Part shown: positions 1 through 49,481 of the stretch, in pieces | How the letters are laid out: each line of letters begins with the position of its first letter | How positions within the stretch are numbered: position 1 is the stretch's first letter | NCBI GenBank assembly: GCA_000310025.1 | Contig: FN649748.1 | Coordinates: 847,342-911,341, forward strand | Direction: 5' to 3' | DNA from: Ectocarpus siliculosus | Lineage: Eukaryota; Sar; Phaeophyceae; Ectocarpales; Ectocarpaceae | DNA length: 64,000 nt | The notes under the pieces: model-generated | Told to the model about the DNA's origin: nothing | Database searches by the model: none | Seen by the model: only the letters and a program-made list of their open reading frames with translations | Position numbers and translations under genes: made by a program

Positions 1-17
1 GGGGGGGGGGGGGGGGG
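1..17. mobile_element. G-run: edge of the poly-G-bounded repeat in copy 1
   Basis: The window opens with 17 G followed by CATGATGACGTGAA. The same junction occurs in copy 2 at 10399-10430, where the G-run ends a 0.6-kb repeat. The same repeat therefore probably sat left of base 1, in intron 6 of copy 1, and the assembly broke at the homopolymer. Confidence 0.6.
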
Positions 18-288
18 CATGATGACGTGAACTCCTCCCTAAAACCACGCGAACGACCACTACCCCCGTCTGTCAAGGGCTTCCTCGCGGGGATCTGTTT
101 TCCCAGTTTTGTGCAGGACTCTGAGGAGGATTCCACGAAAACCCAAGCCATGGTGAACGCGGAGTGAGCTTTTGATCATACTTGGAATATTCTTGCTGCA
201 TGACGCAAACACTCCGCCTGGTATCTAGCTTGCACTACATATTATGCCACAAACCGTCGAAATCAGTACGATGCCGTTGATAAAATAC

Positions 289-3215
289 CTGCGCCGGCGA
301 AGGCATCTCCGAGAAGCCCTTGGTGAACGACCACAGGTACTCGTCGTCTCCAGTCCACTTCTTCATCACAGGCTCCCCGATGGAACCCCACAACACCGCG
401 TGCGTCGTTAGCGCAGGGTCTGCACGGAAACGGGATGTTGGCGGGGGAGGAGAGATGAGGCCTGCATCAGGTGTGGCGGTAGCAGGGCTTTGTTTCTCTT
501 TCTCTTCTTACGGCCGCGACGAACCGCCCTTCCGCACACAGAGCAAACATGTCCAGGCCTTTCAACGCGCGGGCACACGGTCTCCAGGCGGCTTCCTCCT
601 CCGCACGACATTGCCAAACACAATTTATCAAGTCCGCCCCTCACAGACATGGCGCTGCCTTCAGCATCCCCCGCTCCCCAGAACAACACCTCATGTTGGG
701 TGCACGATGACGACAAAATGGCCAACCATATGGAAGAAAATCGATTGACAAAAACGACAACGACAACAATAACAACAACGGCAGCACCAGCAGCACCAGC
801 ACCAGCACCAGCAGTACCAGCAGCACCAGCAGCAAGGGCAACGCCAACGCCTCTGCCTGCCTGTCCAACAACAACTCCAAGATAATCTCGAACCGGTGCC
901 GTGACTCACACACGACAGCCACCCTTCTGACGTAAACATGTTGGTTGTCCAGGACAACGACCACCACGACAGCATAGCTGAACAGGAGCAAAGTCAGGCA
1001 TGACAGAGTCCACTTCATCGTCTCGTACTCGTTGAACTGCTTCCGGACCCATCTCAGCTGACGAGTGCACACAAACCTGATCGTGGCGGCAAGAGACACC
1101 AGAGGGCACACGGGACACATGAGGCATGATGCAGGAACGTGCAGGTAAGATTGCCGCCACCTTCGACATCACCACCAACAACAACAACAGCAACAGCAAT
1201 AACAATGACGACGACAAAAAATACCCTACAAGTCGAACCACCGACGTCAACGCCAACCCTTCCCTCTCCTGCCCCCATCTCACCAAAGATAGCACATGGT
1301 GTAGAACCCCACGACGTTCATCGCCAAAACCACGTTTCTCGAAGTGCTCGTGGTGTTGCACGAGTTGACAGCCTCGTCGAAGACGTAGGCACCGGGAACA
1401 AGCAGGGCAACCAGCGGCGGAACCAGGCTGATGCTCGAAAGCAACATGATCTGGTACCTGAAAGACGTGTTGTCAACACGGGCGAGGTAGGCCGAGTCAC
1501 GTCGACCTCGTCTCAACGCAAACGTGACGATGATAGCGTTTCAGAGAGAAAATCTGCGCCTCAGTACGTCTACGTTCCTCTACTCTGTGCAAGCCGGATG
1601 CCCCAGTCTCCAAACGTTTCGCGTCGGCGGTGGCCCAGCTAGCTCATACTAAATGGGCATGCTTTCGTCTCCAACGTACCATAATAACCCTAACTCTACG
1701 CCTCCACGTTATGTGGGGAAACCAATGCTGAAAATCGGCCCACAAGGATGTGTGACACCTTGCTTTGTTCACAAGATACAAATCCCTGTCCACAAGAAAC
1801 AGAACCCCTGCTCCAAAGCATCGAAGATGAGACTCGAAGGCCCTCCTACTTCCATCCGCTGTGTAGGTACCCTAGCAATGCCGCGACCAACAACGGCGCC
1901 GGAGCTCACTTTGCGGGCCACATGTTTTCGTCGTGCTTGACCAAAATCCTCCACATGCGGTACACCCGGATGAAAAACGCAAACATGTGGGTGCAAAGCG
2001 CCGACCACGCCAGGAATCTCTGGGGCCGCAGACAAAGCGGGCGAAAGGGCAGGAGGGGTGGTTGCAGACAGAAACGAGAAGCAACGGTGAACGAACGAGA
2101 CCAGAGTTACAAACGCTCCATGAGGGACCGGCCGACCAAACCACCGGCTCGTGAAAACACAATCGGGACACAACGTGGACGCAACCAGCTAACTTGCCTC
2201 GAATCGTCAACCAAGCAGTCGCGAATATCACATAGGAACTCCACCCGCGACGCGCCTGCCTTCAGGCACAAACAACTCTAAAATTTGTGATTGAGGCGTA
2301 AGTCGTCCCGTCTACCGTGGGAGTCAGTTTTTCATCCGGCTTTTTGCAGCGTGTCCGTTGGGGAAACACAGGAGCAAAGTCGCACAAGACTAGTTTCTCC
2401 CGCTGCATGCATCTTCGGCGACCCTCCGAGAGAGAGAGGCGGTCGCGCACCTCGAGGGGGCACTTGGCAAGAATGTCGCCCTCGGTCCTCCGGATTAGAC
2501 CGTTCTCCAGAGCGCCCGCGATTGTCCACGCGAATCCAGCGAACGTCTGGAGGAATGTAGCCAGCGGGATCGAGGACGGGGTGGCAGAAGCACGGAAAGC
2601 GCAAGAGACGGCGAACGTCGAGGGGGTGGGTCAAAGGAAATAGAGGGGAGAAGTACTCGTCTAAGGGGTCGATAAATAGAGGGATAGGGATGTAAGGGGA
2701 GAGAGAGGGCGAGATAGAGAAGAGAGAGAGAGAGACAGATAGAGACGGCTGGCGGGCGGTTGTTGCTTCACGAAGGGCAACTCATAGCGAAAGGTTCTGC
2801 CGACGGTAACACCAAGCAGGAAAACATTCTCCTTGCAGAACTATACCACCAACTTGCAATCACCGCGAGCAGCAGGTGCGGCGGAGGTCGTCGTTTTCTG
2901 CATCACCGCGTGGGAATGGGCGACGACGATGCACACAAGCGTGGAACATGAGTGGCGACGTGGACCCAGCCGTTCCCAAGATCGCGAACGAAACACTACC
3001 TACACATGGTCGAGTCAACGTGTGTCCAGTTTCGTCTACTGCCCACACACCATGACGATGACGATGTCCACATTCTTGGTCACGTACGGCGGCCAATTCC
3101 GCCAGATCAACAGGTGGACGCAAACGCCCAGGGCAAAGGCTTGGACGGTCCCCACGAACCCCAGCATGGTGTAGTCCACCATGGTCAAGGGCTCCCAGAC
3201 TTCTTCGTCCGACAT
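289..3215 (-). CDS. 7TM-RGS receptor-like protein, copy 1 (5' six exons; gene continues past the left edge)
   Basis: Six exons can be joined: 3215-3051, 2546-2451, 2019-1910, 1457-1284, 1076-910 and 419-289. Together they are 843 nt (281 codons) with no stop and GT/AG at every junction. The start is the Met of MSDEEVWEP, shared by all three copies. Hydrophobic helices lie in exon 1 (LGFVGTVQAFALGVCVHLL), exon 2, exon 3, twice in exon 4 and in exon 5; exon 6 holds a short seventh hydrophobic stretch and the linker ending MPSPAQ. The run of helices 4-6, with a conserved W-FVCTRQLRWVRKQFNEY segment between 5 and 6, is laid out like plant RGS1. The RGS exons seen in copies 2 and 3 must lie left of base 1. 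Exon 1 differs from copy 2 at only 3 of 55 residues, so this is the recent tandem partner of copy 2. A role as G-protein-coupled sensor with GAP activity is inferred from the family. Confidence 0.85.
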
Positions 3216-3515
3216 GTTCTGTGGGAGCTCCCTTCCGAGCGTGAGCGGTACAGTCAAGACTCTTTGCGGCTGCTAAGGCTGATGATGAACCTTGAGAGGA
3301 CACCTGCCACGCGCGAGACGGTAGCGGCGGAGAAGCAAGGTAGGGAGGGTTGGTGTACGTATTGTCCTACGGCAGGCATGCAGAGGAGTCCCACACGGTT
3401 CGGCATTCGGTATGTTTCATTGCGCCTATATGCGTTTCCCGTTTCTATTCTACATGGTACTGCTGTTGTAGGGGGGGGGCAAGCGGGAAAGTGGCCCGGT
3501 TGTGTTTGTTCGAGA

Positions 3516-4475
3516 GCGAGGTAAGGCATCAGGTTGGAGAACCTCCAAAACGCTGGGGCCGCAAATCAGGGAGGCGGCGTCTCCAAATCTAGTATAACAC
3601 AAACACGCACATCGAGACTCCAGTCGCTCCTTTCTTAGGGTTGGTGTAAAACTTACGCATTTTCCTTCCCGATTCAGCAGCCCTCCCTCGGTTGGGACTT
3701 CGACTACAGTAGTCTACCCCACGAGCATCCAATGTCCGTGCTGCACAACTTTTTCACCGTCACCAGAATAAAAAATAAAGACGACGACGACGACAATGGC
3801 CATACTCAACATGGAACCTGTGCGTATTTGGCGAAATAGTAACCCACCCACGAATGCCGGAGGCGTCTGAAACCAACCGCTGTTCGATACCAGGCGTAAG
3901 GTTTTTGGGACGATCGTGATCAGTTGGGAATGTTGCGACCGGGGTTCGAATGCTACTACGGTAGACTAATACTTCAGGGTACTTCGTTCAAGATTTGCCG
4001 AGCAGACATCGGTGGGCGCCGTACGCACGCAGCAATTGTTTTGGAGAAAAAAATGGAAACATCACAACTGGCACCTGGCAGCCGGGTGCAGATTTGACCC
4101 TGCTGCCTGCGTGTTATCGTACATCGCCCCCAGACGCAACCCCACACGTCGGAACGTTGGAACATTCCGAGTTCGTCGAGGTAGAATGGCCGACGTGTCG
4201 GGGTGTTTTTTTTTCGAGTTCCCACACATACCTACCTGTTGTTTTGGCCGTAGGGAGATGCGTAGGCATCCGTCGGTGCCGCTCACATGGGTACACCTGT
4301 GCAACATGCTACCTGCATGCCCTATGCCCTGGTCTGTGGTTAATTGTCACGCCGAGGATTACACGCAGTCACAACCATAACATACATCCGAACTCTTACC
4401 GTTTGCTCGGAATGCCCAACCAGAAACACGAGAGACAGTGTTGTCCCGCAAAGAAAAGTATCGTTGCGGAGAGAC

Positions 4476-4511
<36 letters not shown>

Positions 4512-5670: not shown

Positions 5671-6089
5671 GGTCCCGGTTTATTTAGCGGTCCCCTCATC
5701 AGCGGCATGCACTGAATAGCGGTCCCAAAATCTCGTCGCACGGCTGCACCTCGGTACTCAAACTGCAATATTACTGCCAATAAATTAAGAATATATCGGC
5801 CTATATCCCTATATCTATACAGAGATGCTTTTGTTTTCTTAGCACCAACTGGAATCAATCACTGATAACTCAGTGTTAGGCTTACACAAATTCAAAATAC
5901 GCCAAGTCTCCAGTCGGTTTCAGTCCACTTACTGAAAATACTTCACCACATCCCTTTCGACTGAGGTTATATCTCGAACGGGTAGTCTTTCTGCGAGGTT
6001 GTCTTTACTTTCTAATAAACCGGCGATGCCCTCAACAACAACGGTTACAACATTTAGACTATTGGCGGACCGCTAAATAAACCGGGACC
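5671..6089. mobile_element. MITE with perfect 23-bp terminal inverted repeats
   Basis: The left end begins GGTCCCGGTTTATTTAGCGG (5671) and the right end is its exact reverse complement, ending CCGGGACC at 6089. The perfect match covers 23 bp. The 419-bp interior is AT-rich with no ORF, which suits a non-autonomous DNA transposon. No convincing target-site duplication is visible. It lies between copy 1 and copy 2, and I see no counterpart in the upstream region of copy 2. Confidence 0.75.
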
Positions 6090-6229
6090 ACGCCTGCATG
6101 CGCAGCAGGAAGTACCTTTGATCTTGATGTTCGACACACTGATGACGTACGTACGTAGATATCTTTTTGTAAAGCACAACAAAGGATTTATTTTGAGATA
6201 CGAACTTGGGTCTTACCGCTGTTTCTATG

Positions 6230-8295: not shown

Positions 8296-11200
8296 TCACA
8301 CACTGGGCGAAGGCGGGGTGTCCGGCGGCAAGAAGCCCCCGGCCCGCAGGAGACGGTTCTCTCGCTGCTCTAGCTCGGAAGCATCGGCGATTCGGCGGAA
8401 CCCCTCTGTTTCTACGAACTCCCTCTGGAAGTTGGTCTGCGGTCATCGATTTCAAGTTTGTAGGGGCGGCGAAGAGACGGCGCGGAGAGAGAGGTGGAAT
8501 ATAGCATAGAATCCCTTACCAAAGCCGGCTGTGTGTCATGCAGCTTGGTCGATGAACAGCGCTGGGGTGCAAGACTGGGCGGTGGTAGCTTGGTTTGGGT
8601 GTCACGCCGTTGTTCGGTATATATCGGACGAAGAACGGCGCGAAAATCAAAGCGCTGGAAATACAAGGCAGCACGTTTCCGGCACAACATTACGTACCGC
8701 CTCATCACCACGGTGTGGCTATGGTCGGGCCACGGAGGTCACCACAAGACGAAGCACAAAAATCTCATTTGACAGCCAACGACAACGACAACGACAATAG
8801 GAAACAAGAGAGGTCTTCAGTCGAGCGATAGCCAGAGGCGATGTCGTGCCCATCTCGTCTTCATCCTTACCTCCATGACGGTCAGAACCTCAACTCTAGC
8901 GCGGTCGAAGATGTCGTACGCCGTCACGTCCGTCGACAAAATCTCCTCCCGGCACTCCCCCGAAATGTTTACCTGCCGCCGCGATCAATGACACACGCCA
9001 AATATCGTTACAAAGAGGGGAGGGGTGGGTCTTGCTTGCGTTGTGCTCTCAGCACAATAGAAGCGACGCACTATGCGAGCAACGGTTTAGACTGTCCATC
9101 ACCAGATAAATCAAATGCATTATTTGTCATCTTGAGGGACGCATACTGGTATTCAGTGGCACACAAACACGAGAACAACACCCACCTCTTCAGGGGCCCC
9201 TTCTTTGATATACTGCGCCACGATGCGCATCGTTACGGCCTGACAAAAGAACAAACACACGGTTAAGGGAGGGTGTCATTAACGGACGGCAGGTCTTTCT
9301 GTTAAAGCCGCCTTCGACCGTCTCATGGCATGCGGTGGGTACAAATGCTGAAGGAAAGGGTGAAGGATGTCGAGTGGTTCGTTACCTGTCTGGCGAAGTA
9401 TTCCTTGATCTCCTCCCTGTCTAGCGAGTCGAGGTAGAAGTTCACCAGCTCTTGGGCCACCCTAGTCTCGATATATCTCCGAAACTCGGTCCGGAGTTGC
9501 TCTACCGACAGCTGCTCTGCGAGGCTAGCCTTGAGCTTTCGGGGGGTTCAGTAGGGTGGCACAGGGGAGGGGCAGGGAGGGACGGGGTCAGCACACCCGA
9601 GATAGCAGTGGCAGACGGGGGAAGCGGAGAAGGAGGGATTGAAGACACCTAAGACCCCACAAGACGATGGTTCGACGTACCGACTACGGACGGTTTGGGC
9701 ACCGATTTTTTTTTCTCCAGTCATACTGCAGAATGTCTCGCTGTGGTACATGCGACAATTGTTTGTCGTGTGAGGGACCGATTTTCGTCCTGCGGGGGGG
9801 GGGGGGGGTACTCATAATCGTGCATGCCGTAGTCGTTAAAACATTGACCTCCCATCCCTACAAAGCCGGGACGGAGCACGCCGGGTTCTCACCGGACCAG
9901 GCTCTCACATCACCAAGCGCGAAGCGCCCTGAGGTATTTGGCGAGTCGCATGAAGGGTGAGCTGCATCCTGCTAAGGGTGTTCGGCATCTTGTGCTTACT
10001 TCCTTGCGTACGGATGACAGCTACGTATGACTTAATTTATTTTCTGGTGCTTTCACTTCCAGAGCAGTTGTAAGCACTGTGTAACTGCCTCGAGGAAGCT
10101 TGACCATTTTAACCACAACGTGGTGCGATCATCCCCCGTTGCGGCGGAGTGAGGTTTCTCGACCCCGCACAACATGATCTACTCGACCACCATTATGGTT
10201 ACCGCCAAAAAAAAAAAACGAGGTAAAAAAAAAAAAACGGTAACCTGGTTGCCGGAGTTCACGAAGTGAATTGGCTTGTTTTACAACGTCGTTGCCAAGC
10301 GACGAAAACCCAATCCCGATGGCAAAACACCGCGGAGGGCGGCTTGTTTTACAACGTCGTTGCCAAGGGACGAAAACCCAACCCCGATGGCAAACACCGG
10401 GGGGGGGGGGGGGGGGCCATGATGACGTGAAGCCTTTCCCTAAAAAAACGCGAAAAACCACTACCCCCGTCTGTCAAGGGCTTCCCCGCGGGGATCTGCT
10501 TTTCCTAGGTTACTGTCTGTGAAGGCCACGGAGATGGGACCCCCCACGAAATCAAGCCATAGGGAACGCGATTGATCATGCATTTTACGGCATGCGCAAA
10601 CGCGGCACCTGGAGTCTAGCTTGCACCCTTCTACAAACCGTCGGAATCAAGATAATATCGAATCAGGATGATTGGCACGGTACCTCAAGCCATCGGAAAT
10701 CGGTACGAATATCGACGCTCACAAAGTTGTGCTGAGAACGAAGAACGCGGCCATCATTAGAAGCATCACTTTTATTGCTGCCTCTGCGCTCCTTTCACTC
10801 GCTGCTGCAATATATAGCGGCATCCACCGGTCCGTGTGCAGGCTAACCGTCAAACGGAACCGCGTCTGGCCGAAGAGGGCAACCTACCGAAAGCCTCACA
10901 CAAGACACCACTTTCCTCGCTGGGAGTCAAGTTCACAAACCTCGACCTTTCGTGACATGGATAACATACCTGCGCCGGCGAAGGCATCTCCGAGAAGCCC
11001 TTGGTGAACGACCACAGGTACTCGTCGTCTCTCGTCCACTTCTTCAACACAGGCCTACCGATGGAGCCCCACAACACCGTGTGCGTCGTTAGCGCAGGGT
11101 CTGCACGGTAACGGGATGTTGCCGGGGGGGGAGAGATAAGACCCGCATCAGGTGTGGCGGTACCGGGGCCTTGTTTCTCTTTTTCTTCTTACGGCCACGA

Positions 11201-14200
11201 CGAACGGCCCTTCCGTTCTCGTCGCACACAGGGGAAGCATGTCATCCCCTGTGAATAGCCTTCCCCGCGCCAATGGCCAAACACAATTTATCAAGTCCCA
11301 CCGCCTCAGACGTGGCGCGACCTTCTCCAGAAAAAGAGATATAATATAATTTCTCTCCATTCGGGGAAACAGCTGCCTTCAGCGTCCCACGCTCCCCAGA
11401 ACAACATCTCACGCTGGGTGCACGAAGAAAAAAACAATGACCAACAATATGACAGAAAATCGATTGACAACAACGGCAGCACCAGCAGCACCAGCACCAG
11501 CAGCAGCAAGGGCAACGCCAACGACTCTGCCTGCCTGTCCAACAACAACTCCAAGATAATCTCGAACCGGTGCCGTGACTCACACACGATGGCCACTCTT
11601 CTGACGTAAACATGTTGGCCGTCCAGGACAACGACCACCACGACCGCATAGCTGAACAGGAGCAAAGTCAGGCATGACAGGGTCCACTTCATCGTCTCGT
11701 ACTCGTTGAACTGCTTCCGGACCCACTTCAGCTGACGAGTGCACACAAACCTGATCGTGGCGGCAAGAGACACCAGAGGGCAACACGGGACACATGAGGC
11801 CTGTTGCAGGAACGTGCCGGTAAGATTGCCGCCACCTTCGACATCACCACCACCAACAACAAAACAGCAACAAAAACAGAAACACAACAACAACAACAAT
11901 GGCGGCAATGACGACGGCTACAACGACAACGAAAAAGACAAACATACCACAAGTCGAACTACCGACGTCAACGCCAACCCTCCCCTCTCCTCCCCTCATC
12001 TCACCAAATATAGCATATGGTGTAGAACCCCACAGCGTTCATCGCCAAAGTCACGGTCCTCGACGTGTTCGTAGTGGTGCACAAGTTAACAGTCTCGTCG
12101 AACACGTAGGCACCCGGAACAAGCAGGGCCACTAGCGCCGGAGTCAGGCTGATGCTCGAGAGCAACATGATCTGGTACCTAACAGAGGCGTCATCAATAC
12201 GGGTGAGGCAGGGCGGCATCAATCGACCTTGTATCAACACAACACGAAACCAGCACACAGTATCTGCGCCCCGCTGCTATTTCCTTCTTCCCTGTGGATG
12301 CCTCATTCTCCAAAGATTTCGCGTCAGCGGTGGTCTAAGCGGCCCATACTAAATGGACTCGGTCCTCGACGCCTCCACGCGATATGGGGGTGTAGACCCT
12401 GAAAAATCGATCCGCAAGGAGCGTGCGACAACTTGCCGCTGGTCACGAGATGTAGCGTCTGTGCCCAAAACTCATCACCCCCGCCCCAAACATCGAAGAG
12501 TAGACTCGAAGGCGCAGCCCTTCATATTTCGTTCTCGAAACAAGTACCCAAGAAATGCCGCGACCAACAACGGCGCCGGATCTCACTTTGCGGGCCACAT
12601 GTTTTCGTCGTGCTTGACCAAAATTCTCCACATGCGGTACACCCGGATGAAAAACGCGAACATGTGTGTACATAGCGCCGGCCACGCCAGGAGTCTCTTG
12701 GGCATCGAAAAGAGCGAGGGACAGGGGAGGGGTGCAGGCAGGATGAGAAAAAACGGGTGAATAAACGAGAATCGGCAAGTCAAACGCTCCGTGAAGTACC
12801 GGCCGACCACACCACCGGGTCTTGAAATCACAATCGTGACACAAGGTGGACGCGAACATCAACACACAACTACCTTGCTTCGAGTCTCCAAAGAAGTGCA
12901 AAAAAACAGTCGCCAAGCCCCACGGCAACTCCACCCACGATGCGCATCTTTCCAGGCACTACAGTAAAAACTCCAAAGTTGCGCGTGAGGCATTCCGTCT
13001 ATCCTGAGCGTCAGTTTTTCGCCCGATCTCTTTGCGACGTGTCTACTGGGGAAACAGAGGAGGAAAGCCGCACAAGTCTCTTTCCTCCCGCTGCACGCCT
13101 CCTCGGGTGCATGCTTCCAACTTTTGAATCTCTGTTCCAACTTTTGAATCTCTGGAGGGGTTGAGCCATCTCTTTCCTCCACCGGCCATGAAGTCGTTGA
13201 AGAATGCAATAAGCCAACGTTACATCATTCCTACTACGGGCACCTCGTCAATATGACTCCCTTCGTCTGCATCAACGTTTTCGTGCTCTCCATTTATTGG
13301 TGTAAGATTCCTGTCAGCGCCAGGAGCTTTACCACCGCCAATACTAATGGCGCCTTTTTTCCACCGCAAACTCGCCGGCATAGCCTCTTTTTTCTAGTTT
13401 TCAGTTACAACAAGTGACAGTTCTCCCTTGGTGCAGTTCACGCTCCAGTTTACACTACCTTGAAAACAATGAGTCAGACTGATGCGTTTCATCCAACGTA
13501 TGTCTTTCGGTCGACTACGTCTTTCGGAATGTTCATGGTTCATGGAAGCACGAGCTGGGGCCAGACAAGACGGAATGGAACCAGGGCATCAGACGTGTGT
13601 ACGGTCCGGTTGCAACCACCCTCCGAGAGCGAGGGGCGCGCACCTCGAGGTAGCACTTGGCAAGAATGTCGCCCTCGCTCCTCCGGATTAGACCATTATC
13701 TAGAGCGCCCGCAATTGTCCATCCGAAGCCACCGAACGTCTGAAGGTATGCAGCGAGATCGAGAATGGGGCGGGAGAAGCACGGAAACCGCAACAGACGG
13801 CGAGAGCCAAGGGGGTGGGTCGAACGAGGCAAACGGAGAAGCACCAAGGGGCCGAGAAGTAGATGGAGACGGTCGTACGGTGAGATAGAGAAGAGAGACA
13901 GACAGACAGACAGAGAGAGACGGCGGGCCGGTCGATGTTGCTTCACGAAGGGCAACTCATAGTGAAAGGTTCTGCCGACGGAAACACCAAGCAGGAAAAC
14001 ACTCTCCTTGCAGAACTATACCACCAACGTGCAATTAGCGCGAGCACCAGGTGCGGCGGAAGTCGTCACCGCGTGGGAATGGGCAACAACTAAGCACCCA
14101 ACCTTGAAACGTAAGAGGCGACGTGGACCCAGCCGTTCCGAAGATCGCGAACAAAACACTACCTAGACATGGGCGAGTGTCCAAGCAAGCAACCAACAAT

Positions 14201-14419
14201 AGTAACAACAAGCAGGCATCAACGTGTGTCCAGCTTCGTCTACTGCCCGCACACCATGATGATGACGATGTCGACGTTCTTGGTCACGTACGGCGGCCAA
14301 TTCCGCCAGCACAACAGGTGGACGCAAACGCCCAGGGCAAAGGCTTGGACGGTCCCCACAAACCCCAGCATGATGTAGTCCACCATGGTCAAGGGCTCCC
14401 AGACTTCTTCGTCCGACAT
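8296..14419 (-). CDS. 7TM-RGS receptor-like protein, copy 2 (complete, short C-terminus)
   Basis: Ten exons: 14419-14255, 13739-13644, 12696-12587, 12178-12005, 11750-11584, 11100-10970, 9535-9386, 9239-9186, 8972-8871 and 8436-8296, giving 429 aa with all splice sites GT/AG. Exons 1-6 encode the seven-helix region; exon 4 carries two helices around a loop with a conserved Cys. Exons 7-10 encode an RGS domain: a first helix (RTEFRRYIETRVAQELVNFY), then MRIVAQYIKEGAPEE, then VNISGECREEILSTDVTAYD followed by IFDRARVEVLTVME, and closing TNFQREFVETEGF. The Asn of VNIS matches the conserved G-alpha-contacting Asn of RGS domains. The family binds G-alpha at the plasma membrane and speeds GTP hydrolysis. 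The C-terminal tail stops at PPSPSV, 34 residues earlier than copy 3. Intron 6 carries a poly-G-bounded repeat (9794-10416). Confidence 0.86.
9794..10416 (-). mobile_element. Poly-G-bounded dispersed repeat (in intron 6 of 7TM-RGS copy 2)
   Basis: The element is about 620 bp and starts and ends with long G-runs (9794-9808 and 10399-10416). It holds two direct copies of a unit of about 60 bp beginning TTGTTTTACAACGTCGTTGC (near 10276 and 10343) and two A-rich tracts. Its reverse complement matches 44069-44681 over almost the full length. No coding potential or obvious terminal repeats apart from the homopolymers. Class unknown. Confidence 0.7.
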
Positions 14420-14624
14420 GTTCTACGGAAGCTCCCTTCCAAACGTGAGCGATACAGTCAAGACACTCGAAGGGCTGATAATGTATCGTGAGAGGAATCC
14501 TGCCAGGCGCGAGACGGCGGCGGCGGAGAACCAGCGTAGAGAGGGTTGGCGAGCGTGTTATCCTCCATACGTCAGTCGCCTAGCGTTTCTACTATTGTAG
14601 TATAAGGGAGGGGGGTGTTTGTTG

Positions 14625-15146
14625 GGTCTCCCACACTTTCTTCAGTTTTGCTAGACCCCCCGCGGGGAACCCATGGGCTGCCCATGGGCACTTTGGTGTC
14701 CATGGAGAATGCCCACGGGCAAGCCCGTCGGTAGCCCATGGGCGGCCCATGGACCGTCCATGAGTGCCGTTCAACCGGAACCAGTGTACTCCCAAGCGAT
14801 AGAGTATCTGCTATGGAAGTGACATTATAACGGCTAAAAACACTTACGCTAACCCCGACCCTAACCACAAGCCCACACGATACGTGAAAGGTTGGCGCTG
14901 GCTAAGTTCTAGGTTGATGTGCCGATGGCTAAGTTCTGCTGTAGGTTGATATGCCGGTGGCGAAGTCCTAGGTTGAAGTGCCCACGGTGGGCACTTCGTG
15001 GGCAGTTAATTGGCTGCCCATGGGCCCACCCATGGGCAGCTCGTGGGCAGTCCATGAAGTGCCTATGGGCGGTCCAATGGGCTGCCCGTGGGCTGCCCAT
15101 GGGTGCCCGATGGGCGGTTTAGCAAAACACGCAGTAGTTTAGGAGA
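14625..15146 (+). mobile_element. Palindrome-rich foldback element, copy A
   Basis: The ends are imperfect inverted repeats of about 35 bp: left TCTCCCACACTTTCTTCAGT.., right ..ACGCAGTAGTTTAGGAGA, both running into TTTTGCTA(A/G)ACC. Inside each end are clusters of 8-12-bp palindromes around GCCCATGGGC (14668-14755 and 14990-15110). The centre holds GCTAAGTTCTAGGTTGATGT-type repeats. The same structure is found at 51164-51626. No ORF. Confidence 0.75.
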
Positions 15147-16942: not shown

Positions 16943-17352
16943 GTCGCAACCCCGCTCCTCGTTGGTTGTATCCGCGGGCCGTGTGTGTGCAGTGTACAGC
17001 GGACCGGTGGAAACGAGAATTGTTCTTTCTCGGCGGAGAGAAATCAGACGGAAAGATTCAAATTTGGCGGAGCCCCGTTGTTGTTGTCTTCACACTCGTG
17101 TGAGTCTTTTATTTTTTCCAAGACAAAATGAAGTATATCACATGGCGACCGGATATGGTAGACAGCATGTCACGCGTGTTCCCCATGTATGTGCCATGTA
17201 AAGGTTCATCCCAGTAAAAAGACACCGCAGCAGCAGCAGTATTGTAGTCTCTCTTCCGCTTCGTGGACGGCAGTATCTACTGCTGTTGGACCTCGAAATA
17301 ATACAGAACTTGAGCCAAAAAAAAAACTCAGAACTCGTAAAAAAAAAATGGT

Positions 17353-17976
17353 GCTCATCATCAGACCCATGTTTATGGTTTCCAAATCTTTGTATCTTCC
17401 TTTCTTTGGACAGATGTTGACTTTTTCGACCTTTTGGGCAGTCTGCCTCCCGAACGAATGCGAATCAGCTGTTCGACCTTTGAGAATATATTCACAGCTT
17501 TTCCTGAGATGTATACAGGCCGCCTATTTGGTTTCGCCAGGGTCCACGTTTGATNNNNNNNNNNNNNNNNNNNNNNNNNNNNNNNNNNNNNNNNNNNNNN
17601 NNNNNNNNNNNNNNNNNNNNNNNNNNNNNNNNNNNNNNNNNNNNNNNNNNNNNNCAGCAGAGCAAGATGTGCACCATTCGGCCGAAAGACCACCTCGGAG
17701 CAAATCTTGGGCCAAGATCTGTCCCAAAAAAGGCTGGTGTTGGAAAAATCTTGCGTGAAAATTGCGCACCTTGCAAAAATCAAACGTGGGCCCTGGCGAA
17801 ACATATAGGCGATCTGTAGACATCTCAGGCAAAGCTGTGACTATTCTCAAAGGTCGAACAGCTGATTCGCATTCGTTCGGGAGGCAGACTGCCCAAAAGG
17901 TCGAAAAAGCCAACATTTGTCCAAAGAATGGAAGATAAAGATTTGGAAACCATAAACATGGATGGGTCTCATCATG
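17353..17976. repeat. Long inverted repeat (foldback element) with the assembly gap inside
   Basis: The left arm (17353-17554) reads CCATGTTTATGGTTTCCAAA.. and the right arm (about 17780-17976) is its reverse complement with about 10% differences, over roughly 190 bp. Between the arms lie 100 N and the unpaired stretch 17655-17779. The outer ends are also inverted (CATCATCAGACCC / GGGTCTCATCATG). It is probably a non-autonomous foldback transposon, and the palindrome probably caused the gap. Confidence 0.75.
17555..17654. other. Assembly gap (100 N)
   Basis: Exactly 100 N, a conventional placeholder, so the real length is unknown. It sits within the long inverted repeat. Reading frames crossing it have no meaning. 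Confidence 0.95.
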
Positions 17977-19533
17977 CAAAGAACCCGCTTGAGAGCAAAA
18001 AGTAGATTATTAGTGTCATGAGCATTGGAAGCACGATACCTCGTTGGGATGGATAACGTAATTCAATCTGCTAAAAGAGAGCATTTGAGTACGCACCTTA
18101 TCTCGTTTAGCTTGGTTCGTGTGTGGGTCGCTGCCGCCGTGGCTTTCTTCGCTGCCGCTGCTGCCTTACTTACTGCTGGCTGCTTTCGCTTTCATGTTAG
18201 CGGAACTAAATACGATACAATACTACATACAGCAGAACTACTACAGCAGTACTACTGTTGTTGCTGTAGTCTAGCCTACACGTTGGTGGGTACTTTGTAC
18301 AGTACCCCATCGGACAAAAGAAGAAACAGGCCTCGGCCAACTCGGAGACGCACAGAAGGATAAATTCTGGCCAGTCAGTGTCGAACACGGACGAGTGAAC
18401 CTGGTACAGTTTTCTCCTCGACAACAACCAACCCGTCCGTGACGAACGTGCTTTCGGTGTGATATTATTTTATGGATGGAAACCAAACCGATGTATTGTT
18501 GTACGAAAACCGAGGACTTCACACACCCATCTTCGGATGTACTCCCACGGCCGAAGGTGCTCGCAGCGCTTGTTCTAGTCAAGGAAACCGCGCGAAGGTA
18601 ATGATCAATGTTGGGAACGTACCGCGCGGCAGGAACCTCACTTAAATGCACGACGCAGTTGTTTCAATCGCAGTCGGTTGTTGGATAGTTGGATCTAAAC
18701 CTAGGAATACACAAAGATTATCACGAATTATTTTACGTACAAACAGAGAGAGACCACCCGTTCGAGATATCACCACAGAGTCGAAGGGGGTGTATTGAAG
18801 TCTTTGCAGTAAGAAAGTGGAGAGAAACCGGCTGGGTACCGGGCTTATTTCAAGTCTGTTTTGAGCCTATACACTGATTGTTACGCCTGATTGTTATGCC
18901 AGTGATACCACCTGGCGGTAAGCATAAAAACGCCTGTCTTATTATTCAAAAGCTTTGGATAACAGAGGGTCTGGCCATATGTGCAGTGGTGTTGGTTGAA
19001 AAGGCTACACACCCAGATCCCACAATGTTTCTGGTTCCGGGTTATTCTTTTACAAAAGGTAGCCCACCACACACACAGTTTCAAATCGTTCCGAAGCTAA
19101 AGTAAAAGTAATTATATACGAAGTACTACAGCGGAAATATCATGCAGAGCGAGATGCGGCTGCGGCTGAGTGTTTTTCATAATCCTAGCAAACGGCAGAC
19201 AACGTCTTCGTGTGACCTGCCTTCAAGAGCAGAGCTCGTGCACGCAACTTTGCCCCGGCGGCGGCTAACTATGTTCATTGCTCTTCATCCGGGGTACCCC
19301 CTATGTAGACTTTCGTCGCTGGGTCGTTATCACGAGGGAGCGGACATTCCGGGCAGCAGGAGACACTGTCCTCGTCCCTTTTAGGCCATAACGAAAGCAT
19401 GTCCACGGGCACAGCGTGATCTAGGAATCTCGTCTAACGGATCGATTTTCGTTTTCACCAACACCAGCTACAGATCCAGCGAGTGCTCTCTATCCACACA
19501 ATTCTCAACGACATTTGCCCCACCCGCCCCCTG
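17977..19533. other. Intergenic region downstream of ctpA, no supported gene
   Basis: Open stretches are short and of low complexity. No splice-joined protein, RNA gene or repeat pair was recognised. Confidence 0.5.
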
Positions 19534-24730: not shown

Positions 24731-24776
<46 letters not shown>

Positions 24777-32198: not shown

Positions 32199-32202
<4 letters not shown>

Positions 32203-39236: not shown

Positions 39237-42200
39237 TCAACGAGACGAAGAAGGCAAAATTCTCCCCACCACCAAGGAAAAACGTGTGAACTTGTTCAAG
39301 AGGCCACTCTGAGGAGGAGTGACAGAGGAAGCGGGCGGCGGGCTGTTCAGCGTCGGCGAAGCATCCGCAACCAAGAAACCTTCTTTCCGAAGGAGGCGAA
39401 TCTCTTGCTGCTCCAACGCAGACGCGTCGGCGATGCGCCGGAACCCTTCCGTCTCTACGAAATCTTGCTGGAAGTTGGTCTTGTGTCGTGCGATTGGAAG
39501 GCCAAGGTCGGACACAGAGAGGGAACTGGGTGCTTTCAGTGAGCGTAATACGCGCTATGATTACTCGCTGGTCGTATGAATCCGCTCGGCAGGGCGTGTT
39601 TCAAAACGAGATTACGATGTGGCAATGTGGTTACGTGGGTTTGTGTCGAAGGGTGCTACTAACAGCGTCCAACGTAATGAGCCGGGGAGCGCAAAGATCG
39701 ACCGATTTTCTTTTTTCCCCAGGAGCGAAAAATCGGCTCTATATATGTCGGCCTGTTCGAACACGATGGGACCCAAGTTTGATTTCCGACTGGTGTCCGG
39801 GCGACCGAATATGCCCTCCTTTTCGACCAGAACGAGGTACAGTAGAGCACCGATTGAAGACCTGCTGGCTTCTGAAGAGGAAAACAAGTTGGGTAGGAAA
39901 ACCAACTAGTGCGCGAGGAACGCTCCCGAAGGCATCTTTCCATCGCAGCCCTTTCCGACATCGCCCCTCCCGTGGTTGTAGAGCGATCGAGCTGTGGAAG
40001 TTCGTATATCTTCATACTGTAGGAGTTGGGATCACTCCCGCGGTATCGGTTGTCGCTTCGTTTCGGAAAACGCCAACCGATGTCGAGGTAACGACCAGAA
40101 TGACGAATTTTGCTCTCTGAAACATAAGTTTACATATGTAAAACATGCTCAGATGATGCGGGAGATTTTCGGAGTTTACGAGAGGGGAGGGGCTCTGATG
40201 CTCAACAACAGCAATTATATTGTTTCCGAGTTATCACTGTACCTCCATGAGTGCCAGAACCTCTGCTCTAGCGTGGTCGAAGATGTCGTAGGCCGTCACG
40301 TCCGTCGACAAAATCTCCTCCCGGCACCGCCCCGATATGTTTACCTGCCCCTCGAAAACGACGCGACAGGAACAGGAGCGCATGAAAGGTCCCCCAGATA
40401 GTGGGCCGGTTTGCTGTGCTGCATGAGTGACAAGTGTGATCGATGATCAACTCGCTCGACTTCTCTGACTTCTTCCAGGACATCATCTATCGCCGCAAGT
40501 CATACCACACACCCCAGTGACATCTACACGTTTTTGTGTCTGAGATGGTATTACCATAAGTTCGTGAACCAATCATGTATCAGGGATGGTGGTAGAGAAC
40601 AATAACCAAACGTGCGTAGAACTTATTTGCACCTGCTCGGCAGCCCCTTCCCTGATGTACTGGTCAACGATACGCATCGTCGCCGCCTGCAGAACGAACA
40701 GGGATTTCAAGTGAGGTACATGCTGAATGGGTCGTTTGACTCCCTCCACCGCGAACAAATCAGGGGGGATATATGTAGCTTTGGAAAAAGACGTCGAGTG
40801 TGTGTTAAACGCTCGGAACGGTCGCTCAGATCTGTTTTTCCCCCAACAGTCTGTCCGTGTGAGTCGTGAACGCCACCGTCACAGACTATTTCTCAGTCCA
40901 CGGGAGATACATTCGTCGAAATCCCTCGTTGGCGCATACCATCAATCGTTCACTCCTAGTGAAATACTGAATGAAAGCGTGAAGAACACGCGGTACCCCC
41001 CTTATGATACAAGGTCAACAGACGAATAACAACGCCGAGCTTCTAAAAGGCGAGTGTCAACTCGCACCTACCGACTATTCAGGACCTCAGGCGGGGACTA
41101 CTGTCGGCCCCCCCACGACTGCTGCGTGTGGAGCCGCACTCAATTGGCGTGTAACGTACGGTGTAGATTTCACATCATCGGCGAGCTACAGGTCGAACGG
41201 CACCATTCCGACAAGCGTATGGCATCCCATCCGCCGAACCTCCACAAGGTGAAGTACCAGGTCCCCTATGCCACTAAGTGGGATGTACTCAAAAAAGGTA
41301 CGCCAATAAAGCCATATGTAGTGCAGCTTACGTCTCGTGTCTCGGATTGTGGGTCCTCGGAGTACGACACAGCGACAACAGAAAACCCACAAGATGAACA
41401 TTCGTGCACCAAGGAAGTGAAAACAGGGAACCGTCCCAGACAATCGCCGAGGAGATTGTACCCTTATGAAGGGGATCGCCGAAATATGCCCCCCCTATTG
41501 GTGTTCTTAGTTGCTCGAAGGTTGCTCGGGGCGACTGGATCCGGATTCACTTCTTCACAATCATTCGTGCAATATTACACTGGTCCGCTAAGTCCGCCAA
41601 GTCTTCGAAGTCCCATGGGTTCGATAATCTGTTTCGGCCCCCCGCTTTTTTCGTCTACTGTATGTTTTGGAAAAATATGTGGCCGGTGGCGAATTCGAAC
41701 CTGGGTTCTCTGCCATCGAAAGCAGACACCTCTTCGTCGACGCCAAGGTGATAACCGGGAACGTCCTCGAAAGATTTTTGGGAGATTGTACCTTTTGGGC
41801 ACGTATGTGGGTGGGTAGGTGGGTTAGCGAACGAGACGAAAACAAGTATATCCCTGTTGCTGCCGCTCTACCTGTCTGGGAAAGTACTCCTTGATCTCCT
41901 CCCTGTCTAGCGACTCGATGTAAAAGTCCATCAGCTCTTGAGCCACCTTCATCTCGATGTACTTCCGAAACTCGTCCCGGAGTTGCTCCACAGACAGCTG
42001 TTCCGCCAGGCTGGCCTTCAGCTGTATTTGGGCGACAGTGGTGCAAATCCAAGGTGCGGGACACCGAAGAACGGACAATGGAAGCTTAGTGTCCGCTGAT
42101 GCTTCCTCTGTCTCTGTCACTGTTTGTGTCACGGAATATAACAACGTTGATGAAGGCTCATTAGTGTGTCCGAGAGGGTTTGGGATTGGCAGGGTGCGTG

Positions 42201-45200
42201 CGGTATGACTCCCTTTCCATTTTCCCTCGTATCGCACTTCACACCATGAAGCCGGCCGCGTTATGTTGACCGGGAGGGAAACACCTATTGTTACAGTAGT
42301 TTGAGGGCGTGAATGTCAGCAGGAATACCCTTGACGACACCATACTGCCTGACGGATTACTGTCACATAACCCATGAATCACTTGCGCGAAATGGGTTTC
42401 GGAAAAATAGCGTCAGACTAGCCATACATGTAGGTCTTCAATGTTCCTTGTACTTTTCATCTCCTGCTGACAATTGCAACAACACCCTCCTGCAACGCGT
42501 GTAATCACGTTTAACGGTTGAATTTGAAGTCTGCCGAATCCGAAGTATCTCGAGCGATAACGTAGACACACGCCCGAAGAAACACCTCCTCTCATACCCA
42601 AGCGCTAACGGTAATACACATATCGCCCACAGGTCGCCGCGATTATACCACAATTCGCTGACATTGCACAACAACAACAACAACAACAACTATTGAAGGC
42701 ATTAGGCATGAGCGACAGCCCCCTAACCTGCGCGGGCGAAGGCATCTCCGAGAAGCCCTTTGTGAACGACAACAGGTACTCGGTGTCTCCCGCGAGCTTC
42801 CTCTTGATCGGCTCCCCTATGGAGCCCCAAAGCATGGTGTACGTCGTCAGCACTGGGTCTGGATCGTGTCATGACGGGAGGTGGAGGTAGAGGGGTGTAA
42901 GAAACCTAAGGGACAAGAAGTTTGTCACCACGGTGGCATCAAGATCACCAATGTTTTCGAGGCTAAAACGAGGAACGGTCACCCTTACTAACAGAAGCAC
43001 ACGGCAGTAACCATGGGTAGCAACACGAAGAAGGGAATAGGGACTCACGCACGATGGCCACCCTTCTCGCGTAAACATGTTGGTTCTTGAAGATTACGCC
43101 CACGAAGGCCACGTAGGTGATCACGAGCAGAGTGAGGCATGACAGGGTCCACTTGATGGCGTTGTACTCGTTGAACTGCTTCCGGACCCACCTCAGCTGA
43201 CGGGTGCACACAAACCTGTGAGCACCGGACAGCGCGGGCAATGAAAAGCAGGTGTTGGAGGAACGCACAGTGTTTGCAATCACCCCCAGTCAAGACAATC
43301 TACGACGAGAACGACGATGACGAAAAATAAGACCACGACCACGGCCACGGCCACAACCATGGCGACGGCAACCAGAAGGTGAACAACAATGAGGCTATAT
43401 CACGTTCCACTGTCACTCGGACTTGAAAGAGGTAAGAGAAGGGCGTCGTGGGAGCACAGCCTGCACGTTTAGTTTTTTGTTGCAAGATTTACCCAACCAA
43501 CATGAGGGTGAACATCAGCAGCGCAACAACAACAACAACAACCTGTCCCGCATCCAAAACGGGAATAGAAAGTGCCTACCTCGCGACCACGCTTGCTTGA
43601 GGAAATGACGTGCTCGGCCGTTTCGGCCTTCTAACATAAAGACGTTCACGGATAAAGAACTTCTCGCATGACCAAACGCAGATCAGAGCGCCACAGCTAC
43701 AGAGGACGGCATAGTCACACGTGGTGCGTTTTACATGAATTTAGCTTTCATCTCGCCAACAAAATGAAAGGCAATGATAATCTCTTGGTTACAAAAACGT
43801 TCGACTTCACGGTCGATCACGCGCCGGGCTCCAAAGTCCTTCTCGCCATTAACCACACACACCGGAGGAGCGAGGTGAAGAAGTAATAGAATCGCTTCTG
43901 TGACTCGGCTAGTACGTCGACATTTAACTGCCGAAAGATGCACGCTAAGTGAACAGATTTGATGACAAAAAGAAAAAAACAAAACACGGTCGTTCGTACG
44001 ATCACAACCAAGACTGATCACCGGTGGTCAACCCAATCTCCAGCTCTCGAAAAGTACACACACACACACCCCTTCCCCCGCCCCTGATGTTTGCCATCGG
44101 GGTTGGGTTTCCTTCGCTTGGCAACGACGTTATAAAACAAGCCCCCCCCGGTGTTTGCCATCGGGGTTGGGTTTTCGTCGCTTCGCAGCGATGTTGTAAA
44201 ACAAGCTGACCACTTCGTGAGCTCGGCAACCAAGTTACCGCCTTTGTTTTGTTGCCTTTGTTTTTTGTTTTTTTGTAACCATGACTTGTGGTCGAGTAGA
44301 TTATGTTGTGCGGGGTCGAGCACCCTCACTCCGCGCAAAGGGGATAATCGCACGTTGTGTTAGAATGGTCAAGCACCCTCGAGGCAGTTACACAGTGCTT
44401 ACAACTGTCTCTGGAAGTGAAAGCACCAGAAAATTAATTAAGTCATACGCATCTGTCATCCGTCCGCAAGAAAGTAAGCACAAGATGCCGAACACCCTTA
44501 GCAGGATGCAGCACACTCTTCATGCGACTCGCCGAATACCTCACGGTGCTTCGCGCTTGGTGATGTGAGAGCCTGGTCCGGTGAAAACCCGGCGTGCTCC
44601 GTCCCGGCTTTGTAGAGATGCGAGGTCAATGGTCTAGCGACTACGGCATACACGACCGACCATGAATATGCCCCCCCCCCCATCCCCGAAGATAACACCT
44701 ACACAAAGCCTCTTCTCCTCACCAAAGACAGAAAATTCCGGCGAACAATGCGGTACCCATGGCCATCATCACGTATTTCGAGGCCGGTGAAGTACCGCAG
44801 GAATTCCGCCTCTCGTCGAAGAAATACACGCCTGGATCCACCAAAGCCACCAGCAGGGGTATCAGGCCGATGCTCGACAGCAGCGTTACCTGGCACCTGA
44901 AGAGTCGAGAGTGTACAGAGAGACACGGCGTCTCGAAAGTTCACGCAATCTAGGATATGTTTGCGCGGCTCCACAACAAGTACCTTCATTGGAGAACCGT
45001 GGGGCTGACAGAGTAAGAAGTCGATTTCTGTGAGGTTTGCTCCTCAGGACTCTACCACAGCCGACACATTTTTGCCAACTCACTTCGCGGGCCACATGTG
45101 GTCGTCGTGCTTGATCAAAATCCTCCACATCCGGTATATCCGAACGCCGAACGACATCAAGTGAGCAAAAACGGTCGTCCACACCATGGATTTCTAGGGC

Positions 45201-48200
45201 AGGAAAAGGCGAGTAGGGCGGGGAGGAGAAGGAAGGGGGAGACACCGAAAATCAGGCGCACATCATGCTGAAAACGGAGGTCGGGGACAGAAGGAGAGGG
45301 CATGTAGACAAAGATGTTAACACGCGTACTCTTGAATGTAGTATGCGTTGAGTTGTTTCTGCCCTTTTTTTCGTGGTTTTTTGCCCCTGCCCTATTTTCG
45401 AATAATGGGAAACGACAAAGAAGGTGGGTTCCCACCCCTTTCACAGACAAAAAAAGTGGGTAGTCGAAAACGTGCTCGGCGGAGACCGCTGGTGACAGGC
45501 ACAACCACTCAAAATATCATTCCGATGCAAAAATCTGTGGGCAACCGTATATTTGACCGTCGAAACCGCAAGGGGGGACACTGAAAATGAAACGTGTCCC
45601 TTGCAATGAGGATAATCGATTTCTGTGCACCTTTCATGAAAAATTCCCATATACGTACCCAGGTGACAACGGAAAAATTGGGAATTCCGACAAATTCCGC
45701 TGAACCAGAAATCTGCACTTCAAAGAGCCAGCCAGCCACATCTATCTGCTGAGAGGAGCACGCATGCCGTCATTCCGTTTTTAGCTCAGCCACCTACCTC
45801 TCTTGGATTGCGGAGCTACTGTAGCCGGCATTTCGGATCCAGCCGTTGTGCGATACTAATCATCTCCGGTAGGACTTGAGGAGGACGGACTGTAAAGCTG
45901 TAGTAGTATACTGCACTGCGTCTGCTCCTTGCTGCTGCTCTTGGCTGACCCAGGAACTCCGAAAAATCCCCACAGGTACGAACAAACTCCTTTGTGTGTG
46001 GTCGAAGGATGGGCTGCGCTATGTACAAGCCCAACATGCCACCATGCACAACATAGTGCTGCTGCCTTCACCTGTCGCCGCCCTTCCACGTCTACCTGTC
46101 CATGACACATGCTGCCAACTGATGCGACAACACCGGGGTACAACACGGACAAAGGGAGTACTCCCCCTGCCCATAGACCGTCAAAATTGCTTACAAACTA
46201 GAACAACCTCTCATTCCTCCCATGCCAAGTACAAATGATGTAGCATGCATGAAATGATAGACCTTGTCTTTACTTGTGGTCCACGCTGCCTAATAATGGG
46301 AGAGGTAGCCATACCTTCTGCCTACGCACGGGTGAGATAGGTAACCATACCCACTGCATTTAACACACACCCACATGTCGGTGATGAAACCTCAACCATA
46401 CGCCTCTATCGGCGACCACGTCAGGAGGTAATGATGAGAGAATGTTCTCCCGTGCCATTTGCACATCTAACGACACGAAATTACTCAAAACGGTAAGAAA
46501 ATGGTGACACCACTCCCGTGTGTCCGCACATACTCCGAAATGCGTCCGCACATATGCATACCCGTTACTACGCGTACCACACTGAAAATACGTTTGAAAA
46601 CTGAGGGAGATGGCATGCCCTACGACTAATAGGGTGCCACACACAAAACGCCCGACTACCCAACAGTACCTAACACATTTATTCTGCACCTTCCCAACAT
46701 AACATATATGAGACACACAAGACAGCTACCAAACTGTTTTGTTGAGCCTGTTACCCGCAGGGGAGATGTCCCTATATGCTGTCTGGGAAATCGTAGACAT
46801 ACAGGTACTTTCTGACGCTATGGATTCATTGCTAATCTGTCTCAGACTCTTCTCTATGATAGAGATGGATTCATTGTGTCATATTAAGAAAAAAAAAAAA
46901 AAACATGGGCAGAGTCCATGCACAGCATGAACATCAACTTTTTTTTTTCTTTCGGACAGAGCCGCGGCGCACAAGGCCTCAACGGTTGCCCGATTTTGTC
47001 CGAAATTCTGCCCGAAAGAATCTACAAAGGCTTTCATGCACCCACCTTTGTCTGCTTTGTGACCTACTTTTGTCCGAAATTTCCCCACCTTTGCCCAAAA
47101 TAAAAGTGCCCACTTCTGCACAATTTTTGAAGCCTGCACGTCGTCACCGCATGGGAAACTTTTCCAATGAAACAAACGGACAAAAGTGGGTACATTTCGG
47201 ACAAAAGCGGGTCACAAAGCAGACAAAGGTAGGTACATGAAAGCCTTTGTAGATAGATTCCCGTGGGCATACCCACCGGAATTTCGGACAAAATCGGGCA
47301 ACTTTTGTTGAGGCCTGGTGCGCCGCGGCTGTGTGTAGGGTGAAGACGTGCCCGAAAGCTTAAAGAAAACGAACGATGCCCATGCTATGTTAGGGAGGAA
47401 ACAAGGGAAGGGAGCAGGTCCGCTGCTCCTTGCTGAATCACTCACAGTTGTTGTTGTTGCATTTCATGTTTTATCCTCTTCATACCTAAAACGCGTTCCG
47501 CGCTCACAAGTCGAGAGCGAGGACGGGGGTTAAACTCCTAGTCACAGTAACCAAAGACAATACAAAATAGCCATGTCATGCGAACAGCGCTCATACACTA
47601 GTTGCTCCGTTACACTCACTCGTCTACGCCCGACGTTCACCGAACATAAAAAGCTGCTGTTCTCAAGACGTGATTAGATATCCTTCATACTTGCCAGCGG
47701 TCGGCCACCATACTCGTCGATCCAGCACCGCTATGCGCTCACTGCGGAGCTGCTTTGTTCAAAGGTGAGAGTTCCATTCCATAAAGGCTACTGGTATTTA
47801 ATTTGGGCTCATCATCTGTATGCGTGATTTTATAGATAACCAGTGTCCAATATAAAATGACGTTGCTATTATGCTATTCTATCGTCCATTTCCATCACAT
47901 TACGCTGCATTTCTTACACAACGTACCTACCTACATCCGCCGGCTACGGCCTTGTGTTCCCGATGACGTCGTAAGTACAGCTCTGCGTCCAGTAACAATG
48001 TCATCAGTGCCGTCCCGCCTAATAGGCGGGCGGCCGCCATACCCTTTTACATACACGTTGAAAAATCAAAACTATCTCCACTACGCAAGCAAGATGAAGA
48101 AGACCCCCCCAAGACCCCCCGCGTCGCACGAACGATTCTACAGAGCCGCCGGCTCGCGTGACGTAAGCAGACGACGAGGGTGAGAGTTGACGTATGACCT

Positions 48201-49481
48201 CGGAGCCGCCGAGCGAACAACACGGCAAGCCGCACGAAACCTCGAGCCGCGTAGCACCATAACTTGGGGAAATATTCGTCATCGTCTTGCGCTACCTGGC
48301 ACATACGCCCGCCTGGCTCGCCGACCGCCGGCCCTTGACGTGATTTTCTGCTATGCTGACATTCGTTTTGTCTTGTCGCTCTACAAATGTCAACACACTC
48401 GCCGCGTTCGCAACAATGCTTCATTCAACGGTTTGGTGACTTCATCTCCTGTCGCTCCATAGAGGCCTATGACTACGCCGTGAGCCTTCAAAACTGGAGC
48501 AAGGCGAGAGGGGCCTAGGGTAGCGTGATCGATTCGTACTTGCTGAACCCTTACAGCACTGCCCAATTTCGTATTATTTTGTGACCGTGCGAAATACGGT
48601 ACCTCAAAGTAGCAGTTGGCGAGCAAGTCGCCCTCGCTCCTCTGAATAAGGCCGGTAGTTACCGCCGTCGAGAATGTCCATGCGAAACCCGCACATGTCT
48701 GCATGTTCAAGGGTAGAGGAAAATCGAGTGAAGAAGGAAGTACATAGCATCGAGAGCAAGTGGGGGCAGTTAGATCCACATGGAGAACACATTGGAAGTC
48801 ATGCGGACCAGGGAGGCAGGGGAAAAGGACACAGAGACGTAGGCACAGACTGTGTAAGCTGTAGAGAGTTGAAGGACATAACCTGAGCTAGACATTATTG
48901 ACATAGACAGAGACTGAGACAGAAAACGAAGAGAACAGACCAAACACCCAGTGGAATGAAGCGGGGCGGCGCAGAGATAGTAGTTCTGATGACGTTCGAG
49001 AAACCAGCAAGACGAAGGCCCACCGCAGGACAAAAAAAGAAGCGCCGGAAGCACGGCTGGAGGTGTGCACAATGATTGTGCATGTAGCAGTAATCAGAAA
49101 ATGATAGGCGGTTGACCAAAACGGCACCGGCAATGGCAACAGCAACGGCAACGGGTACAGCAGCAGGAAACAAACACAACAGCCGAAAAGACGGCGACTA
49201 CGTATTACACAGCAACACGAAAACAATGTATTTCATGTCATGTACAACTACAACAACAACCATTGCTACAATGACGACGACAGCGTCTTTCTCGTGCCAT
49301 TTGCATACATGCTCACCATGAAGATGACGAGGTCGACGTTCTTGGTGATGTATGGCGGCCACTTCCGCCAACGAATTAGATGGATGCATACCCCCAGGGC
49401 AAAGGCTTGGAATGCACCCACCATCCCCAGCATGAGATAATCGACATAGGTCAAGGGCTCCCAGGGTTCTTCGTCCGACAT
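39237..49481 (-). CDS. 7TM-RGS receptor-like protein, copy 3 (complete, diverged paralogue)
   Basis: Ten exons: 49481-49317, 48698-48603, 45193-45084, 44896-44723, 43215-43049, 42858-42728, 42021-41872, 40686-40633, 40344-40243 and 39479-39237. They total 1392 nt (463 aa), close to the length of plant RGS1. Lengths and phases of exons 1-9 equal those of copy 2, which fixes the model. The order is: short acidic N-terminus (MSDEEPWEP), seven hydrophobic helices in exons 1-6, then the RGS domain in exons 7-10 (LRDEFRKYIEMKVAQELMDF; MRIVDQYIREGAAEQ; VNISGRCREEILSTDVTAYD; TNFQQDFVETEGFRRIADAS) and a Pro/Ser-rich tail ending LPSSSR. Intron 2 is unusually long (3.4 kb) and holds a foldback element and a poly-A retroposon; intron 4 holds a poly-C-bounded repeat. 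The acceptor of exon 10 is AAG. GAP activity towards G-alpha and a ligand-sensing role are inferred; the ligand cannot be read from the sequence. Confidence 0.88.
44069..44681 (+). mobile_element. Poly-C-bounded dispersed repeat (in intron 4 of 7TM-RGS copy 3)
   Basis: This is the opposite-orientation copy of the 9794-10416 element. It begins in a C-rich tract, carries the two direct units (TGTTTGCCATCGGGGTTGGG at about 44088 and 44153), and ends in an 11-C run at 44671-44681. It lies in a different intron from the copy in 7TM-RGS copy 2, so it is an independent insertion. Confidence 0.7.
46680..46903 (+). mobile_element. Poly-A retroposon fragment, copy 2 (intron 2 of 7TM-RGS copy 3)
   Basis: It contains GCTACCAAACTG, GTTGAGCCTGTTACCCGCAG, GGGGAGATGTCCCTATATGC, ATGGATTCATTG and a 15-A tail (46889-46903). 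It is the opposite-strand match of 15279-15500. Confidence 0.5.
46961..47329. mobile_element. Foldback element with arms of about 150 bp (intron 2 of 7TM-RGS copy 3)
   Basis: The left arm starts GCCGCGGCGCACAAGGCCTC (46961) and the right arm ends with the reverse complement (GAGGCCTGGTGCGCCGCGGC, 47329). The arms share CCCGATTTTGTCCGAAAT, ACAAAGGCTTTCATG and TTTGTCTGCTTTGTGACC. Small indels separate the arms. The loop is about 60 bp. No coding potential. Confidence 0.75.

Follow-up and report, generated by a model that had tools for sequence, protein, structure and literature searches.

The window, a stretch of 64,000 nucleotides from the 189-Mb genome of Ectocarpus siliculosus (C23:847342-911341), contains three minus-strand genes, A, B, and C, that probably encode seven-helix (7TM) membrane proteins with a C-terminal RGS domain, namely receptor-GAPs of a known kind that have multiplied by tandem duplication. 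Their sequences point to membership in a larger, tandemly duplicated 7TM-RGS family, whose tandem array is the notable part. As 7TM-RGS proteins, large families included, are already known, this family is a new representative of a known protein kind. A brown-algal description of it was not found in the open-licence literature searched, and it may be annotated elsewhere.

The first-pass annotation had reported identical exon lengths and phases in the three genes, and both were re-derived exactly. Exons of 165, 96, 110, 174, 167, and 131 nt occur with identical phases in all three copies, those of 150, 54, and 102 nt in the two copies where they are visible (B and C), and GT-AG ends are present in all 23 introns whose two flanking exons lie within the window. 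Copies B and C are complete (Table 1). Copy A adjoins a 7,190-base run of N (C23:840152-847341) that ends at the window's left edge, so that its RGS exons are unreadable. In the 7TM part, protein identity is 90% between A and B, 63% between B and C, and 64% between A and C, and in the RGS part B and C share 80%. At the DNA level, the six exons that can be compared between A and B have equal lengths and identities of 87-96%; for the five introns the identity is 70-87%, and 13-56% of the aligned columns are gapped. Judged from the sequences, the likeness of the three genes is homology and not chance, and splice sites and conservation together argue that exons 1-6 and 7-10 encode one polypeptide.

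The window also holds several repeats. A mobile-element-like stretch of ~620 bases in intron 6 of B (9796-10415) recurs in opposite orientation in intron 4 of C (44069-44681; 87% identical). Related repeats in which GCCCATGGGC-like words abound (~14600-15140 and ~51250-51610) match each other in several frames, a dense short tandem repeat (~63190-63999) has six frames that match each other on both strands, and an inverted repeat (17141-18062) flanks a 100-N gap at 17555-17654. Of the larger open frames in other parts of the window, 10 were compared with Pfam, and none had a hit over a cut-off.

Table 1. Coordinates of the 7TM-RGS genes (window positions for A, B, and C; contig positions for the others)
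Feature	Location	Strand	Content
Copy A, exons 1-6	289..3215	-	7TM part, 281 aa, open; joined exons
A, single exons 1-6	3215-3051, 2546-2451, 2019-1910, 1457-1284, 1076-910, 419-289	-
Copy B	8296..14419	-	complete, 10 exons, 429 aa, 7TM + RGS
B exon 1	14255..14419	-	165 nt
B exon 2	13644..13739	-	96 nt
B exon 3	12587..12696	-	110 nt
B exon 4	12005..12178	-	174 nt
B exon 5	11584..11750	-	167 nt
B exon 6	10970..11100	-	131 nt
B exon 7	9386..9535	-	150 nt, RGS part begins
B exon 8	9186..9239	-	54 nt, RGS part
B exon 9	8871..8972	-	102 nt, RGS part
B exon 10	8296..8436	-	141 nt including stop; RGS part ends, short tail
Copy C	39237..49481	-	complete, 10 exons, 463 aa, 7TM + RGS
C exons 1-5	49481-49317, 48698-48603, 45193-45084, 44896-44723, 43215-43049	-
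C exons 6-10	42858-42728, 42021-41872, 40686-40633, 40344-40243, 39479-39237	-
Array gene D	C23:837391-826102	same as A, B, C	splice-aware model
Array gene E	C23:819220-812289	same as A, B, C	splice-aware model
Array gene F	C23:798905-792612	same as A, B, C	splice-aware model
Array gene G	C23:788491-781926	same as A, B, C	splice-aware model
Array gene H	C23:778199-771629	same as A, B, C	splice-aware model
C8a	C8		exons 1-5, N beyond
C8b	C8		exons 1-9, in-frame stop in exon 4
C8c	C8		exons 4-10, N upstream
Divergent single	C9		7TM pieces only, N beyond
Divergent single	C15:4.44 Mb
Divergent single	C489

The family is much larger than the three members first counted, and the local expansion proposed at that stage proved more extensive. 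A search of the alga's own genome with the C protein returns 93 matches, and splice-aware models place A, B, and C in a same-strand array of eight genes that spans 125 kb (C23:771,629-896,822) in the order H, G, F, E, D, A, B, C. Complete ten-exon models were obtained for seven of the eight; in these, exons 1-9 have equal lengths, apart from exon 5, which measures 170 nt in two genes (D and E) and 167 nt in the remaining five, and exon 10 varies between 135 and 441 nt. Because the exon finder was seeded with the window genes, requiring AG and GT/GC and lengths within 12 nt of theirs, the splice sites and lengths of D-H are fitted and not independent; their open frames and identities were not built in. 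All readable exons are open in the eight genes. A second cluster of three genes lies on C8, and with three divergent singles the family comprises at least 14 members, 11 of which show both the 7TM and the RGS parts. These counts are lower bounds, since runs of N conceal parts of A, C8a, C8b, C8c, and C9. A weak RGS-exon match on C5 (E 8.8e-4) with three stops was left out. Haplotype duplication was ruled out, as the copies are serial on one contig with dS of at least 0.18.

Other RGS loci were encountered in the genome. Those at C10:1486500-1493500 (Pfam 6.9e-6) and C15:1089000-1095500 (8.5e-7) have hydrophobic open frames upstream and are perhaps a second 7TM-RGS subfamily; they are excluded from the count of 14. 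At C14:1828500-1834500, a PAS_9 match (5.9e-18) lies near RGS-matching frames (3.3e-6), and both PAS and RGS seem to be repeated. The PAS domain carries a flavin-site-like GRNCRFLQG motif, of a type that we take to denote LOV, and the locus possibly encodes LOV-RGS light sensors.

The RGS assignment made for exons 7-10 is borne out by Pfam, which reports matches over the curated cut-off for B (1.9e-11) and C (1.7e-10) at residues 290-398, and likewise for D, E, F, and H, making six of six complete array proteins that were compared. In all of these the domain is C-terminal to the 7TM part within the same joined-exon protein. Among PDB sequences, B matches 23 distinct entries at E<=1, the best being RGS2 (7.6e-6); 22 of them bear the name of an RGS protein or of GAIP, and the remaining one that of CG5036. 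Comparisons with Arabidopsis used a single working AtRGS1 sequence of 459 residues; the RGS profile matches this one target at 1.7e-12. An hhalign result for the same pair (E 2e-7) was discarded, as it aligned one column. All 10 members in which the exon is readable retain the Glu of the E-L-x-x-F-Y motif, and 10 of the 11 readable members, C489 being the exception, retain the Asn aligned with the "N[IL]" position of AtRGS1 and RGS2. Both are residues that, going by RGS4 structures, presumably touch G-alpha, and GAP activity is predicted for the domain.

The seven-helix part is less sharply defined. With a 19-residue window and a threshold of 1.3, the hydropathy scan reaches seven segments only for F; A, B, E, and G show six, and C, D, and H five, TM3 and TM7 being weak. 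The N terminus is short, TM1 starting at about residue 14 in the eight array members, and an ectodomain is absent. Pfam 7tm_3, the class C GPCR family, aligns with D almost end to end (residues 17-238, model 11-237 of 251, E 4.4e-6), and this best member scores 27.0 bits, below the curated cut-off of 33.5. Only two of 12 members scanned (all but C8b and C9) match 7tm_3 at E<=10, A, B, and C returning no match, and none of eight block shuffles did. Searched against the PDB at E<=10, the 7TM profile finds five chains, all of them GPCRs (three mGluR7, two CX3CR1), with a best E of 0.23 that is not significant. Conserved Cys residues sit at the top of TM3 and in the TM4-TM5 loop, as for a GPCR-type disulfide. 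Taken together, a seven-helix topology has moderate support, and the 7TM part is probably GPCR-like and perhaps class C-like, with the same weak match of D's helices and the same mGluR7 chains among its best PDB profile matches. It differs from class C receptors by lacking a Venus flytrap, by its RGS tail, and by a score under the Pfam cut-off. The earlier claim of seven helices and an RGS domain in one polypeptide thus stands for the RGS domain on Pfam and PDB matches, and less firmly for the helices, given five to seven hydropathy segments and a 7tm_3 score short of the cut-off. No match to PF05462, the cAMP-receptor GPCR family, was found in the genome; control genomes also gave none, so this does not establish its absence.

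The array copies are kept under purifying selection. Nei-Gojobori estimates give dN/dS of 0.25-0.41 (median 0.31; 28 pairs, eight genes) for the 7TM part and 0.14-0.37 (median 0.23; 21 pairs, seven genes, without A) for the RGS part. In the nucleotide tree, A and B, D and E, and F and G are paired, and C and H stand apart. Values of dS in the 7TM part range from 0.18 to 0.95, so most copies are old and not recent. It is very unlikely, then, that the array consists of recent tandem copies, serving dosage or decaying, of which a single one works while the others drift: the in-frame stop of C8b and the stops of the C5 match would fit such drift, but all eight array genes are open over their readable exons and all 28 pairs show the constraint just given. 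The 7TM part could instead be a mere anchor, making these proteins membrane-tethered GAPs without a ligand whose copies differ in the time or place of expression and not in sensing. Such an anchor would suit the short N terminus without ectodomain, and exon 1 (TM1 and the first loop), with a mean pairwise identity of 0.85, is, together with exon 9, among the least variable. Yet divergence is greatest in exons 3 and 4 (mean pairwise identity 0.58 and 0.59), which cover TM3-TM5 and the second outer loop, where a receptor would vary, and purifying selection extends over all seven helices, which makes the anchor reading unlikely.

How the family relates to plant RGS1 is a separate question. The resemblance to AtRGS1 in size and layout claimed at first sight holds, with 429-463 residues against 459 in the AtRGS1 sequence used and the same domain order, and the label "plant-RGS1-type" suits the layout and the RGS domain; for the 7TM part it finds no support, the match to this AtRGS1 sequence being at chance level. 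The 7TM profile scores 1.1 bits against it, a value reached or exceeded by 186 of 986 block-shuffled controls, hhalign gives a probability of 0.1, and the AtRGS1 sequence returns no match with Pfam 7tm_3. These results speak against orthology with plant RGS1 by descent from a common eukaryotic 7TM-RGS ancestor, as opposed to an independent joining of 7TM and RGS parts. The shared domain order and length, the RGS similarity in that one comparison, and two outer Cys in the same columns as two Cys of the working AtRGS1 sequence speak for it, and we would put orthology at slightly under an even chance.

The first-pass annotation had all receptors acting on one G-alpha, a claim that the genome does not support. 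A PF00503 search reports five multi-exon G-alpha loci over the cut-off, on C1, C3, C7, C19, and C479, and a single exon fragment on C11, left out of the locus count as 4,880 of the 7,001 bases there are N. The presence of five such loci makes it probable that the family encounters more than one of these proteins. DVGGQ and the glycine of switch I occur in every one of the five. At the switch I position of AtGPA1 Thr194, two loci (C1 and C7) carry Thr and three (C3, C19, and C479) carry Ser; in grasses, Asn at this position is reported to weaken RGS coupling (PMC3386157). Six G-alphas have been reported for Ectocarpus (PMC3879662). Outside the 7TM-RGS family, a class C GPCR 7tm_3 exon (C17:1175605-1175802, E 4.7e-6) exceeds the cut-off with its neighbours, and this exon and a GRK-like gene reported for Ectocarpus (PMC3307776) suggest that further receptors may exist.

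Among known systems, plant 7TM-RGS proteins share with the algal ones the order of 7TM then RGS, a length of about 430-530 residues, a similar RGS domain, and, on the face of that domain, the conserved Glu and Asn. They differ in the 7TM part, where no similarity to the working AtRGS1 sequence is detectable. They also differ in number: plants mostly have one such gene or none (PMC3386157) and Brassica two (PMC5794992), against at least 14 here. Naegleria fowleri likewise has a large 7TM family with C-terminal RGS domains beside many G-alphas. PMC9283941 gives 28 7TM-RGS genes, GAP activity of isolated RGS domains, and overlapping action of these domains on several G-alphas; several members have large outer domains (EGF-like, lectin), whereas the array members start with TM1. 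The fungal MoRgs7 and MoRgs8 (PMC6405168) and Aspergillus GprK (PMC10794492) also combine 7TM and RGS with a proposed receptor-like behaviour, but in MoRgs7 and MoRgs8 the order is reversed, the 7TM part being C-terminal.

If A, B, and C are receptor-GAPs, each would begin with a short N terminus (~14 residues), continue through seven membrane helices, and end in a cytoplasmic RGS domain that would speed GTP hydrolysis on G-alpha. The GAP would be held at the membrane by the 7TM part, and an outside cue would most likely tune it. Self-activating G-alphas are described for plants (PMC3386157) and for some Naegleria subunits (PMC9283941); should the algal G-alphas also load GTP unaided, the cue would take effect by holding the GAP back or withdrawing it, leaving more active G-alpha. 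By analogy with Naegleria, several RGS domains may act in an overlapping manner on several G-alphas. A GPCR for ectocarpene has been proposed (PMC3879662), and the array might conceivably, though we think this quite improbable, be a chemoreceptor repertoire for several cues, perhaps ectocarpene-type gamete pheromones or surface cues, working through GAP switching on several G-alphas and not through nucleotide exchange. If the copies are ligand-tuned, an independently multicellular lineage would be using receptor-GAPs as its receptor repertoire. This would bear on G-protein signalling before exchange-type GPCRs dominated, and would put names to candidate receptors in a group with no known pheromone receptor.
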